Assembly (NCBI GenBank): GCA_018814045.1
Contig: JAHJAR010000288.1
Span: forward strand, 1 to 64,000
Direction: 5' to 3'
DNA from: Planctomycetota bacterium
GTDB lineage: Bacteria; Planctomycetota; Phycisphaerae; UBA1845; Fen-1342
Length of the DNA stretch: 64,000 bases
Each line of letters begins with the position of its first letter. Position 1 is the first letter of the stretch. The notes under the pieces are model-generated. The model worked only from the letters and a program-made list of their open reading frames with translations, was not told where the DNA came from and did no database searches. This document shows, one piece after another, positions 29,786 to 34,368 of the stretch. A program made the position numbers and the translations under genes.

Positions 29786-30754
29786 ATGAAACTCGGAGTG
29801 ATGGGCGCAGGACTCGGCGGCATGGAGTGGGAAAAGGCTCTCGATTATTGCCAAAAGGTCGGCCTGGAAGCGATCGAGCTGCCCGCCGGGGCCTATCCCG
29901 GGAAGCCGTTCTTCGACCCGGAAGAAGTCCTCAAAGACGCGAAGAAACAGAAGAAAATCGTCGAGGACTGCAAGAAGCGCGGCTTGGAGATCATCGGCCT
30001 AGCCACGCACGGTAATCCCGTCAGCCCCAACCCCGAAATGCGCGCCCAGCACGAGCGCGATCACGACGTCGCCGTCAGGCTGGCCCCCAAGCTGGGCACC
30101 GACGTCGTGATCAACTTCTCTGGCTGCCCCGGCGGCGCACCCGGCGACAAGCTGCCCAACTGGGTTACCTGCGCCTGGCCGCCGGAGTACGGCGAGATTC
30201 TCAAGTACCAGTGGGACGACGTGCTGATCCCCTTCTGGACCAAGAAAAACCAGGAGGCCGCCAACGAGGGCGTCAAGATCGCCTTCGAGGCCCACCCCGG
30301 CTTCTGCGTTTACAACACCGAGACCATCCTTCGGTTGCGTGAAGCCTGCGGGCCGCAGCTCGGCGCCAACCTCGACCCGTCGCATTTCTTCTGGCAGGGC
30401 ATCGACCCGGTCGAGTCCGCCCGCGTGCTCGGCGACGCCGGCTGCATCTTCCACGTCCACGGCAAGGACACCGCCATCGACCCGCACAACACCAAGATCA
30501 ACGGCGTGCTCGACACCGGCAGCTACGCCGACCTCGGCAAACGAAGCTGGGTCTTTCGCACCTGCGGCTACGGCCACGGCGACGAATTCTGGAAGCCGTT
30601 CATCAGCATGTTGAAAATGAAAGGCTACGACGGCGTCATCAGCATCGAACACGAAGACTCGCTCATGAGCGTCCAGGAGGGCTTCGAAAAAGCCGTCGCG
30701 TATCTGCGCGGCGTCCTGATCAAAGAGAAGGCCGGCGAGGCGTGGTGGTTTTAG
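29786..30754 (+). CDS. sugar phosphate isomerase/epimerase (xylose isomerase-like TIM barrel)
   Basis: The 322-residue AP endonuclease 2 / xylose-isomerase-like TIM barrel shows MKLGVMGAGLGG, GLEAIELPAG, IAFEAHPGFCVYN (metal Glu), LGANLDPSHFFWQGID (Asp/His ligands), FHVHGKD and the C-terminal VISIEHEDSL (last metal Glu). It should isomerise or epimerise a sugar in the cytoplasm with a divalent metal; substrate unknown. A TAGGAGC Shine-Dalgarno precedes the ATG. The last ~180 bp are repeated at 31415-31607, beyond the PIN-domain pair. Confidence 0.9.
   Translation: MKLGVMGAGLGGMEWEKALDYCQKVGLEAIELPAGAYPGKPFFDPEEVLKDAKKQKKIVEDCKKRGLEIIGLATHGNPVSPNPEMRAQHERDHDVAVRLAPKLGTDVVINFSGCPGGAPGDKLPNWVTCAWPPEYGEILKYQWDDVLIPFWTKKNQEAANEGVKIAFEAHPGFCVYNTETILRLREACGPQLGANLDPSHFFWQGIDPVESARVLGDAGCIFHVHGKDTAIDPHNTKINGVLDTGSYADLGKRSWVFRTCGYGHGDEFWKPFISMLKMKGYDGVISIEHEDSLMSVQEGFEKAVAYLRGVLIKEKAGEAWWF
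30571..30754 (+). repeat. direct repeat, copy 1: 3' end of the isomerase gene
   Basis: This segment encodes GHGDEFWKPFISMLKMKG to the stop codon. Copy 2 at 31418-31607 matches it with about 20 differences over ~172 aligned bases (hand count) plus a 9-bp insertion near the start of copy 2. Confidence 0.92.
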
Positions 30755-30757
30755 CCG

Positions 30758-31204
30758 ATGCGGGTCTGTTTGGACGTCTGTTGCCTGAATCGGCCCTTCG
30801 ACGATCAGTCGCAGGAACGAATCAGGCTGGAAAGCGAGGCCGTCAAGCTCGTCTTCGATCTGGTCGCCAAGGGTTTGCACGCGTGGATCAGCAGCGAAGC
30901 AGTCGAGTTCGAGATCTCCCGGCATCCCGACGACCAGCAGCGCTTGAGCCTTCAGGTTCTTATCTCGCTAGCCAACGAGCGGCTTATCGTGGACAGCCAA
31001 GCGGCGACCCGAGCGGCGCAGTTGGAATCCGCGGGAATCCCGGCGATGGACGCCGTCCATCTCGCCGTTGCGGAACAACACGGTTGTGACGTGTTTCTGA
31101 CGACTGACGATACGCTGATGCGCCGTGTGGCGCGTCTTGGCAAAAAGCTTCAACTTCGGGTCGCAAACCCGGTACAATGGATTGCGGAGGTTTTGGAACC
31201 GTGA
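30758..31204 (+). CDS. PIN-domain ribonuclease, probable VapC-like toxin
   Basis: This 148-residue PIN domain has acidic residues at the expected places: D6 (CLDVCCLNRPFDD), E50 region, D98 (PAMDAVHLAVAEQHG) and D117 (CDVFLTTDD). PIN domains of this sort cut RNA with Mg2+. The start lies 3 bp after the isomerase stop. The gene overlaps the next start by 4 bp (GTGA), so the two are translationally coupled, in toxin-first order. Whether the pair is an active toxin-antitoxin module is inference. Confidence 0.85.
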   Translation: MRVCLDVCCLNRPFDDQSQERIRLESEAVKLVFDLVAKGLHAWISSEAVEFEISRHPDDQQRLSLQVLISLANERLIVDSQAATRAAQLESAGIPAMDAVHLAVAEQHGCDVFLTTDDTLMRRVARLGKKLQLRVANPVQWIAEVLEP

Positions 31205-31417: not shown

Positions 31418-31607
31418 TCACGGCGACCGCGACGACGAGTTCTGGAAGCCGTTCATCAGCATGCTGAAAATGAAAGGCTGCAACGGCGTCATCAGCATCG
31501 AGCACGAAGACTCGCTCGTGAGCATCCAGGAAGGCTTCGAAAAAGCCGTCGCCTACCTCCGCTCGGTCCTGATCAAGGAAAAAGCCGGCGACGCGTGGTG
31601 GTTCTAA
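31418..31607 (+). pseudogene. direct repeat, copy 2: orphan 3' end of an isomerase gene
   Basis: The segment encodes GHGDRDDEFWKPFISMLKMK to a final DAWWF stop, homologous to the last ~60 residues of the isomerase at 29786-30754. It has no start or upstream domain and follows the putative antitoxin gene after 4 bp. Many differences are synonymous third-position changes, so the copies diverged under selection or came from a related genome rather than by a fresh duplication. Confidence 0.9.
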
Positions 31608-31611
31608 TCCT

Positions 31612-31652
31612 GTGGTACCGGTTTTCAACCGGTCAGTCTGTGTGGCACCGGC
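31612..31652. repeat. family C repeat, TGTGGTACCGGTTTTCAACCGG-like
   Basis: TGTGGTACCGGTTTTCAACC and then GTGTGGCACCGGCTAG are a hairpin followed by a second half copy. They lie between the orphan isomerase tail and the next minus-strand gene. Confidence 0.6.
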
Positions 31653-32287
31653 TAGTCGACGTGCTCGGAGCGCGGCGCAACGCCAAGTTGCTTCATGAGC
31701 TGCTGCCACTGCATGAATGCCTTGAAGACAAACTTGACGGCATCGCCCTTTGAGCCGACGCCACGCTTACGAGCAACGAGAATGTCAGTGCGGAATGGAA
31801 TACCGACGGGTCGGGAGACCCAGAAGCGATGTGACTTGGTCTTGCCGTTGTAGGCAAACTCGACGACGCCGTTATTCCGCAGGTCAGACTCAATCACACT
31901 GTACATGGGCTTGTCGTCGCTCAGAATACCGAGTTGCGGCGCGAGACCGGAGCGACCTTTGAGCCGCTTCAACGTGGCGTGTTTTTTCTCGTTTGCGAGG
32001 TCGGAGCAAATGAGAAGGCCAAGCTTCGAGGCCGCGTAATCCTCAACGCGTTTCCGCTTGCCGCTGGCGTCGATGAGATAGTCTTTGAAATGCCAGACGC
32101 TCTGAGCGAGGTTGAGAATGGCATCGCCTATGCCTTCATGCGGAAATGCAAAGCGAGATCCTCGGCCAACCCGTAGGCCGCGCGGCTCGGCGAGTGGGTC
32201 CAGTATCTCGAATTGCGAAATGGGCTGGGACAGCGCGAGATGCTGGCGCCGAATGCTGCGGGTTTCACGCTCAATCTTCTCGGTCAT
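31652..32287 (-). CDS. hypothetical protein, accessory region
   Basis: The 211-residue soluble protein has no signal peptide. Landmarks are FEILDPLAEP, AILNLAQSVWHFKDYLID, LLICSDLANEKKHATLKR and a beta C-terminal part (GVVEFAYNG...RPVGIPFR). The DLANEKKH segment resembles a motif in uncharacterised proteins from accessory regions; no name is known to me. G+C is visibly lower than in flanking housekeeping genes. It is divergent from the zinc-ribbon/nuclease operon. Confidence 0.65.
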   Translation of the reverse strand: MTEKIERETRSIRRQHLALSQPISQFEILDPLAEPRGLRVGRGSRFAFPHEGIGDAILNLAQSVWHFKDYLIDASGKRKRVEDYAASKLGLLICSDLANEKKHATLKRLKGRSGLAPQLGILSDDKPMYSVIESDLRNNGVVEFAYNGKTKSHRFWVSRPVGIPFRTDILVARKRGVGSKGDAVKFVFKAFMQWQQLMKQLGVAPRSEHVD

Positions 32288-32454
32288 GACGCCACAGAAT
32301 ACGCCACGACCGGATGAACCGCAAGTGGCTCAGACGGTAGCGTGCGTTACGGGACGCACCCAACGTGACTCGACAATCTTTGCAGACAGTCTAGACTGTT
32401 CAATTGCGGGTTTGGATTTGTGGGCAGGTCCAAGAAAGGGGCTTGAATTTGGCG

Positions 32455-33129
32455 ATGAAAAAGGCGGAAATGCAGGAGCACCGCGACGCATATAAAGACC
32501 GTATGACCCGTGCGTTTGCTGCCGAGAGAGACGGGGCATTCCATGAGGCAATCGAACTGGCACTTTCCTCATGGGATCATATCGACGGGATGATGCAGTA
32601 CGAACGCAAGTACGAAGACAGGGAATTTGACAGCGTTCAGGCCATCGACCTGATTCTCGAGTACGCTCCCTTCCTGCTTGATTTTCACACACTCGATAAG
32701 CTAGCAATACTGCTCAAGGACTACCGCCGGATCGAGAGACACACTTCAGATAGCTATGCTGAGAAGCTCGCCGAGGCCCGGTTGATAATGTGGGAGGCAC
32801 ATCGCCTTTGGGACTACCTAGAGTTCCATCCGGATGCGAGGCAGGATGAACTCCGAGCGAACCTGGGGGGCGACCAAGGCCAATGGCGCTCGGTGGCAAC
32901 CCTCTGGGAGAAGATGGGCTTACTTCGACGCACCCCTGAGGGGCGCTCCTACCGGTTAACCCTCTGCACGCGAATGGGAAAGGTGGTCCCAGCAAAATGC
33001 CCGTCGTGCGGTGCCGTCACTGAAGCTCCGAAGGCCATGTTTTTGGAGGACATCCGCTGTCCCGAATGCCGGGCTGTGGCGAGTTTCGTCTTTCATGCAG
33101 AGGAAACCACTGGCGACTTAAGGGAGTGA
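32455..33129 (+). CDS. helical / winged-helix / zinc-ribbon protein, partner of the DUF4041 nuclease
   Basis: ATG 32455 is preferred over a TTG at 32404. The 224-residue product starts with a TPR-like helical half (residues ~10-125; FHEAIELALSSWDHIDGMMQ). A winged-helix-like segment follows (~130-170: DELRANLGG...TLWEKMGLLRRTPEG). A C4 zinc ribbon ends it, with Cys182/185 (CPSC) and Cys202/205 (CPEC). No family was recognised. It ends 3 bp before the nuclease start, so the two are almost certainly one operon. It could be a regulator, sensor or substrate adaptor of the nuclease. Base composition is lower in G+C than surroundings. Confidence 0.75.
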   Translation: MKKAEMQEHRDAYKDRMTRAFAAERDGAFHEAIELALSSWDHIDGMMQYERKYEDREFDSVQAIDLILEYAPFLLDFHTLDKLAILLKDYRRIERHTSDSYAEKLAEARLIMWEAHRLWDYLEFHPDARQDELRANLGGDQGQWRSVATLWEKMGLLRRTPEGRSYRLTLCTRMGKVVPAKCPSCGAVTEAPKAMFLEDIRCPECRAVASFVFHAEETTGDLRE

Positions 33130-33132
33130 CCC

Positions 33133-34368
33133 ATGTTGTACGTCGTCGCGTTCCTAGTTGGATTGCTTCTCGGAGCAGGTGCCTTGATTGCTCTCTTGAT
33201 TGAGAAGCAAAGCAGGCTGCGGAGTGAGAAAAACAGGTTGGCAGAGGAAGACGAGAGGCTGAAACGGTTTCGCACAGAGATTGAGCGAGGGCGTAAAACG
33301 CTCACTCACGAGGCGGAACAAGTGAAAGTGGAGCGCCGGGAGTTTGACGCACGCGTAATCTCCTACAAGGAACTGCACGCCGAAAACCTGATCCTCAAAC
33401 GTGACCTCCAGAACATCGACGTCGATTTGCGAAAGCTCCAACTCGACCGTGAACTTCAGCGCGAGAGCCAAGCCAAGCTCGACGAGCGAACGAAGGAACT
33501 GGGGGGTCGCTACTTGAAGGAGAATGTGAAGTGGATCGGGTCCTCACTCACCGCCAACAACTTTGCCGCCTGCAAGAAACGCCTTCTGACCGTGATCGAG
33601 CGTTGCCGAGGAATCGGTTTCGACGTCACACCGGACGAGGAAGCCACGCTGTTGGCTGATCTGAAGACTGAATTCGAGAAGGCCGTGCGTGCCGCCTTGG
33701 AACGCGAGGAACAGGCCCGGATTAAGGCCCAGATCCGCGAAGAGCAGCAGCTTGAGAAAGAGATCGAGCGTGAACTTAAGCAGCTTGAGCGCGAGCAAGC
33801 TGCCATTCAGGCTGCGCTCGAGAAGGCCCTCGCGGAAGCCAAGGACGAACACAGCGAAGAGGTCGAGCGTCTCAAGGCGAGGCTGGCCGACGCAGAACAA
33901 AGAGCCGAGCGCACGAAATCGCGTGCGGAAATGACCAAGTCCGGCCATGTTTATGTCATTTCCAACATCGGCTCCTTCGGTGAAGCGGTTTTGAAAATTG
34001 GCATGACGCGCCGCCTCGAACCAAACGATCGAGTTCGAGAATTGGGCGACGCCTCCGTTCCGTTCCCTTTCGACGTGCACATGATGGTGTCGTCAGACGA
34101 CGCACCAAAGCTGGAGAACTCGCTACATAAGGCACTTCACGGAGTGCGCGTGAACAAGGTGAATCCTCGCAAAGAGTTCTTCAAGACAGACATCGAAACC
34201 GTACGTCAGCTCATCGAAGAGAACCACGGTGAAGTGGACTACGTCGTCGACGCTGAGGCGCTTGAGTATCGCCAGAGCCTTGAGATTTCGGACGACGATG
34301 AGGAGTACATCGAAAGGGTGTACGGCACGTTGAGCGATGATGACGAGATCAGTGCCGATGACGATTGA
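33133..34368 (+). CDS. membrane-anchored DUF4041 / Mug113 GIY-YIG nuclease (SNIPE-like)
   Basis: Residues 2-23 are a transmembrane helix (VVAFLVGLLLGAGALIALLI). Residues 25-120 are coiled coil. About 125-265 matches DUF4041 (VTPDEEATLLADLKTEFEKA; REEQARIKAQIREEQ). Residues 271-350 are a Mug113/T5orf172 GIY-YIG nuclease: HVYVISN (273-278), LKIGMTRR (287-294), RVRELGDASVPF, LENSLHKALH with Glu328, and RKEFF. An acidic tail (DDDEISADDD) ends the 411-residue chain. This domain order is that of SNIPE, described as a membrane-tethered nuclease cutting phage DNA during entry; the family identity is strong, function here is inferred. It sits 3 bp after the zinc-ribbon gene, in lower-G+C DNA. Confidence 0.88.
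   Translation: MLYVVAFLVGLLLGAGALIALLIEKQSRLRSEKNRLAEEDERLKRFRTEIERGRKTLTHEAEQVKVERREFDARVISYKELHAENLILKRDLQNIDVDLRKLQLDRELQRESQAKLDERTKELGGRYLKENVKWIGSSLTANNFAACKKRLLTVIERCRGIGFDVTPDEEATLLADLKTEFEKAVRAALEREEQARIKAQIREEQQLEKEIERELKQLEREQAAIQAALEKALAEAKDEHSEEVERLKARLADAEQRAERTKSRAEMTKSGHVYVISNIGSFGEAVLKIGMTRRLEPNDRVRELGDASVPFPFDVHMMVSSDDAPKLENSLHKALHGVRVNKVNPRKEFFKTDIETVRQLIEENHGEVDYVVDAEALEYRQSLEISDDDEEYIERVYGTLSDDDEISADDD

Follow-up and report, generated by a model that had tools for sequence, protein, structure and literature searches.

A conserved two-gene relative of the membrane nuclease SNIPE in planctomycetes, with a winged-helix/zinc-ribbon partner and no intact DUF4041

The stretch of DNA analysed here (the window) comprises 64 kb from a planctomycete genome of 5.5 Mb in 365 contigs (94.8% complete, 7.4% contamination). 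It carries a pair of genes, hereafter gene 1 and gene 2, for which a preliminary description made from the sequence had proposed a two-gene layout with the genes 3 bp apart. Both open reading frames were verified on the forward strand, as were the 3-bp gap between the gene 1 stop (33129) and the gene 2 ATG (33133) and the SD-like motif at the junction. The pair and its parts are as follows:

32455..33129, + strand: gene 1, the partner protein, 224 aa (start possibly TTG 32449)
Gene 1 residues 1-110, + strand: helical part (AF2, helices up to about residue 110)
Gene 1 residues 111-173, + strand: winged helix (AF2 and VIA-align)
Gene 1 residues 177-213, + strand: C4 zinc ribbon (AF2 and cysteine conservation)
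33117..33136, + strand: junction, with SD-like AAGGGAG in the final gene 1 codons, the 3-bp gap and the gene 2 ATG
33133..34368, + strand: gene 2, a predicted membrane-anchored GIY-YIG nuclease, 411 aa; SNIPE/PD-Lambda-1 relative without an intact DUF4041
33145..33204, + strand: gene 2 transmembrane helix, about residues 5-24 (hydropathy; AF2 helix from residue 2)
33352..33471, + strand: gene 2 'coil b', residues 74-113, conserved in partnered nucleases; candidate gene 1 docking site
33487..33732, + strand: gene 2 remnant of the DUF4041 C-terminal half ('KW module'), residues 119-200 (hhalign)
33919..34287, + strand: gene 2 GIY-YIG nuclease domain, residues 263-385; catalytic E328, equivalent to SNIPE E414

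Because relatives begin with MAMKKAEM, gene 1 may in fact start at TTG 32449, which gives that sequence, instead of ATG 32455. Most relatives share the junction layout, with the SD motif lying within the 3′ end of gene 1 (e.g., AAGGAG-TGA...ATG), and this recurrence is consistent with translational coupling of the pair.

Gene 2 resembles SNIPE/PD-Lambda-1 (Saxton et al., 2026, PMC13190303; Vassallo et al., 2022, PMC9519451) in its N-terminal transmembrane anchor, coiled coil and GIY-YIG nuclease. The relationship to SNIPE put forward in the preliminary description was borne out by a match to the PADLOC PD-Lambda-1 model PDLC03976 (1.7e-83), restricted to profile positions 253-478 of 491, and by E328, which is invariant across 15 homologues and aligns with E414 of a 500-aa phage-encoded protein annotated PD-lambda-1 (L021). 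In SNIPE itself, defence is lost when E414 is mutated (PMC13190303). Gene 2 also matched PHROG 1847 (3e-84), and the nuclease, described beforehand as a GIY-YIG domain of the Mug113 type, was recovered by Pfam as both T5orf172 and MUG113 (1.4e-17 each). The transmembrane helix and long coiled coil that had been proposed were likewise found: the best 19-residue hydropathy is 2.78, at residue 5, a similar segment is present in every gene 2 relative examined, and the AF2 model (pLDDT 75) contains a helix at residues 2-137, a short helix at 144-161 and a long helix at 167-235. We infer membrane anchoring and topology from these sequence features. A fold search with gene 2 returned no significant match.

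The claim of an intact DUF4041 did not stand. PF13250 had no match in gene 2 or the rest of the genome, while all seven canonical SNIPE-type proteins from phages and plasmids used as positive controls (7/7) matched it at 2e-11 to 3e-25. By hhalign, residues 119-204 of gene 2 align to DUF4041's C-terminal half plus the next helix (95.7%, E 1e-8), the remnant core taken alone giving a weak match (17%). The corresponding region of the AF2 model is a helix-turn-helix junction without a globular domain, and one relative (L020) retains a trace PF13250 score of 0.019. Given the absence of PF13250, the partial hhalign match and the non-globular model, this region is, on profile and model evidence, a diverged half-domain whose DUF4041 core is missing or degraded. 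Searched against plasmids and phages, gene 2 aligned only from about residue 240 onward, and BLAST alignment with canonical SNIPE failed before about the same residue; the N-terminal part as query found nothing in plasmids and nothing in viral contigs. The SNIPE domain order that had been suggested therefore holds for the transmembrane helix, coiled coil and nuclease and fails for the DUF4041 core. The preliminary description had staked its reading on a profile search finding DUF4041 and Mug113; the search found the latter and not the former. As DUF4041 was not detected, we file the pair as a SNIPE-related two-gene variant and not as SNIPE proper.

Gene 1 had been described as partly winged-helix-like, with a C4 zinc ribbon and no family that could be named, and each of these points was upheld. 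In the AF2 model (pLDDT 89, 11 homologues) the winged helix resembles Zalpha, MarR and PerR domains over about 60 residues (VIA-align, Z about 10, rmsd 1.3 Å), a likeness of fold at an identity of only about 10-23%, from which function is not transferable. Cys182, Cys185, Cys202 and Cys205 are invariant across 15 homologues, as are D44-G45-M46 in the same 15 sequences. No family in Pfam, NCBIfam, PADLOC or PHROG matched above threshold. Foldseek gave no match for gene 1 in the PDB at E < 0.001 and no convincing structural match for its helical part, which is not proof of a new fold; neither a fold search in viral models nor a PDB sequence search gave a significant match. Gene 1 was not found in plasmids or in viral contigs. 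Weak matches elsewhere in the phylum (L004-L010, L059-L072) were rejected as relatives, nearly all reflecting zinc-ribbon composition; L006, with a weak N-terminal match (residues 7-139), looks like an unrelated protein.

The association of the two genes was traced across genomes. A scan of the gene 1 alignment over 84,980 species genomes returned ten loci, all titled planctomycetes, and gene 2 lies directly downstream at every one, the contig of L015 ending inside it. A class sample added five gene 1 loci, all paired with gene 2, so that, with the window included, 16/16 gene 1-bearing planctomycete genomes have gene 2 directly downstream. Among 298 class genomes, profiles of gene 1 and of the gene 2 N-region matched the identical 12 genomes (12/12 reciprocal), with no orphan of either, and gene 1 was single-copy in each of eight carrier genomes searched. 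No flanking genes were common to different loci; since the flanks differ at every locus, gene 1 and gene 2 constitute the conserved unit. The coupling proposed in the preliminary description is thus strict, clearly the opposite of a partner never conserved beside such nucleases, which it had said would count against it. Whereas SNIPE/PD-Lambda-1 is a single gene with DUF4041, gene 2 lacks an intact DUF4041 and is accompanied by an obligate partner gene in 16/16 genomes. In an even sample of the phylum, a SNIPE-like nuclease was present in 25/392 genomes. Two of these nucleases were fragments and, besides those of the window and two partnered genomes, every classifiable one has DUF4041 except the two ribbon-fused forms described below.

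Nucleases of this family that lack DUF4041 are not confined to the pair. They are common in viral contigs, where they are usually about 410 aa, with a transmembrane helix and no adjacent upstream gene:

L073, L074-L099, L125, L132, L135, L145, L148, L150: viral-contig DUF4041-less PD-Lambda-1-like proteins, no gene 1-like partner

PADLOC models label one of them (L076) as PD-Lambda-1. These proteins resemble gene 2 in having a transmembrane helix and coiled coil, in lacking DUF4041 and in belonging to the same group of the nuclease tree, but they have no gene 1 neighbour, a different coil and no conserved coil b. Their existence indicates that losing DUF4041 does not in itself create a need for a partner, and we abandoned the proposition that a zinc-ribbon partner is required whenever a SNIPE lacks DUF4041. 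These partner-free forms also weaken a reading of gene 1 as a plain substitute for DUF4041. A tree built on the nuclease region groups the DUF4041-less forms with modest support (94/63; 22/52 inner branches open), and a single DUF-positive row on a long branch (L038) falls among them. Nested inside this group are both the planctomycete proteins that have a partner and the ribbon-fused pair, from which it appears that DUF4041 loss probably preceded acquisition of the partner.

The ribbon-fused forms come from two planctomycete genomes:

L029, 991-2445: zinc-ribbon-fused DUF4041-less nuclease
L030, 1444-2871: zinc-ribbon-fused DUF4041-less nuclease

In both, an N-terminal C4 zinc ribbon is followed by two predicted transmembrane helices and fused to the nuclease. 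They have the DUF4041 remnant module in common with gene 2, at >100 bits in a local KW model that was built including L029 and L030. Like gene 1 they contain a C4 zinc ribbon, but without a winged helix or a separate gene. Homology of the L029 fused ribbon to that of gene 1 was rejected, as only the cysteine pattern is shared, and the fused ribbons possibly represent independent recruitment.

Three further arrangements were seen among SNIPE-type proteins. In one planctomycete genome, two SNIPE-like genes stand in tandem with stop and start nearly touching (L050/L055, G351:C96). In L049 and L052, a Pro/Trp-rich N-terminus (NPPPGWP..PP..W.PDP.W) replaces the obvious transmembrane start. Marinitoga phage MPV1 encodes a 371-aa protein (L024, 1910-3025) with DUF4041 and nuclease and, as annotated, no N-terminal transmembrane helix or coil.

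The co-divergence of the two genes points to a particular segment of gene 2. In the 15 pairs compared, gene 1 distances track those of gene 2 residues 74-200, the coil b/remnant region (r = 0.83, Mantel p = 0.0003), compared with r = 0.36 for the nuclease and r = 0.23 for the variable coil at residues 25-73. The correlation with coil b/remnant persists when the nuclease is controlled for (partial r 0.81, p = 0.0003), and there is no co-divergence with the linker helix. Within coil b, residues E84, N85, K89, D91, K101, L104 and D105 are invariant across 15 partnered nucleases, and the segment is unmatched in the non-partnered, ribbon-fused relatives. Residues 74-200 are therefore likely to be the region contacted by gene 1, although co-divergence is not proof of contact and shared inheritance without contact could give it too.

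The block is, as the preliminary description had stated, lower in G+C than its neighbours. The lowest-G+C 2-kb windows of the 64 kb fall at 31.5-34.5 kb (0.56 vs 0.65), and GC3, 81-86% in neighbouring genes, drops to 65-68% here. The pair also lies 5-9 G+C points below its flanks in 7/7 other loci checked; coiled-coil codon usage may account for part of the low G+C. Its presence is patchy (2/27 genomes of the family), and this, with the lower G+C in the window and the seven other loci, makes horizontal spread likely. Among the neighbours scanned there were no defence or shared genes beyond a weak CorA-like match, and no recognisable defence island.

Upstream of the pair, the window contains a 183-bp direct repeat, 88% identical (30571-30753 and 31424-31606). 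It consists of the 3′-terminal part of a xylose-isomerase-like TIM-barrel gene; the second copy lies beyond a small ORF and a PIN-domain gene (30758-31204, Pfam 1e-9), an arrangement that looks as though a duplication had inserted these two. Divergent from gene 1 is a 211-aa ORF (31652-32287, - strand) with no above-threshold family in the same four libraries and absent at the other loci.

An anti-phage function of the pair is suggested by homology, SNIPE homologues of distant bacteria giving phage protection (PMC13190303; PMC12322248). We consider it about an even chance that the pair is a two-gene, DUF4041-less SNIPE variant, with gene 1 docking on the coil to supply recognition or restraint. 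As in SNIPE, a single transmembrane helix would hold gene 2 at the inner membrane, with the coiled-coil stalk and nuclease in the cytoplasm, and the nuclease would most likely cut phage DNA during entry. DUF4041, with which SNIPE recognises DNA and the tape-measure protein, would be reduced in gene 2 to its helical remnant; that SNIPE loses defence when DUF4041 is deleted (PMC13190303) speaks against this reading, as does the absence of a recognisable defence island. Gene 1, translated just before gene 2, would bind the coil b/remnant segment, and its winged helix and zinc ribbon would make up for the missing half-domain by providing recognition or restraint. The complex may then recognise entering DNA or injection proteins, or gene 1 may keep it inactive until that point. 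Both the physical binding and the role of gene 1 are here inferred; a recognition or adaptor role, to which we give roughly equal chances of being right or wrong, ranks before those of an inhibitor and of a pure regulator. More tentative still, and on balance doubtful, is a split SNIPE, in which the phage or DNA recognition of DUF4041 has moved to a separate, obligate winged-helix/zinc-ribbon subunit docked on the coiled-coil stalk.

The best-surviving alternative, which we nevertheless regard as unlikely, is that gene 1 is a dedicated inhibitor, an antitoxin-like restraint that binds the coil and silences the nuclease until infection, with phage recognition residing elsewhere. Such a role would accord with the position of gene 1 at the head of a tightly coupled operon compatible with a toxin-antitoxin module, with the strict pairing and with the localised co-divergence; moreover, SNIPE without its transmembrane helix is toxic and cuts host DNA (PMC13190303), so that the nuclease needs restraint. 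However, the membrane anchor and auto-inhibition keep canonical SNIPE in check with no partner (PMC13190303), gene 2 retains its transmembrane helix, and the viral-contig DUF4041-less relatives have no partner at all.

Less probable again is that gene 1 acts solely as a transcriptional autoregulator, its winged helix on the promoter, with the nuclease working alone like SNIPE. Besides the winged-helix fold, this reading can draw on a perfect 14-bp palindrome, ACAGTCTAGACTGT (32386-32399), which lies ahead of gene 1 and overlaps a predicted -10 box; a spacerless palindrome this long occurs in 0.6% of mononucleotide shuffles. Yet no comparable palindrome or shared operator was present in 15 other gene 1 upstream regions, and if gene 1 were purely a regulator, its co-divergence with a short stretch of the nuclease's coiled coil would be unexpected.

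GIY-YIG nucleases serve mobile elements too, which, with the lack of defence-gene neighbours and the patchy distribution among differing flanks, would fit a non-defence job for the pair, such as homing-type mobility or the handling of incoming plasmid or natural-transformation DNA. We consider this the most improbable of the alternatives in view of the strong PD-Lambda-1/SNIPE homology, the conserved membrane anchor and catalytic residue, the phage protection by distant SNIPE homologues noted above (PMC13190303; PMC12322248) and the observation that SNIPE does not block plasmid transformation (PMC13190303).

The literature searched contains no description of a two-gene SNIPE. SNIPE, reported in 2026, represents a new principle of immunity in which phage DNA is cut at its point of entry, and DUF4041 is essential in the published protein. 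A lineage largely depleted of DUF4041, with anchor and catalytic site retained and invariably tied to a new partner, raises the question of how phage and self are distinguished by a membrane nuclease that lacks this domain. The wider DUF4041-less branch, in planctomycetes and viral contigs, is currently labelled simply PD-Lambda-1 by models. The partner-bound, co-diverging pair suggests that a defence system hitherto known as a single protein also exists in a two-part form, and it offers a tractable two-gene system in which coil b/remnant (residues 74-200) is a defined candidate for the interface. Were the split SNIPE reading true, it would be the partner protein that sets the specificity of the membrane nuclease.
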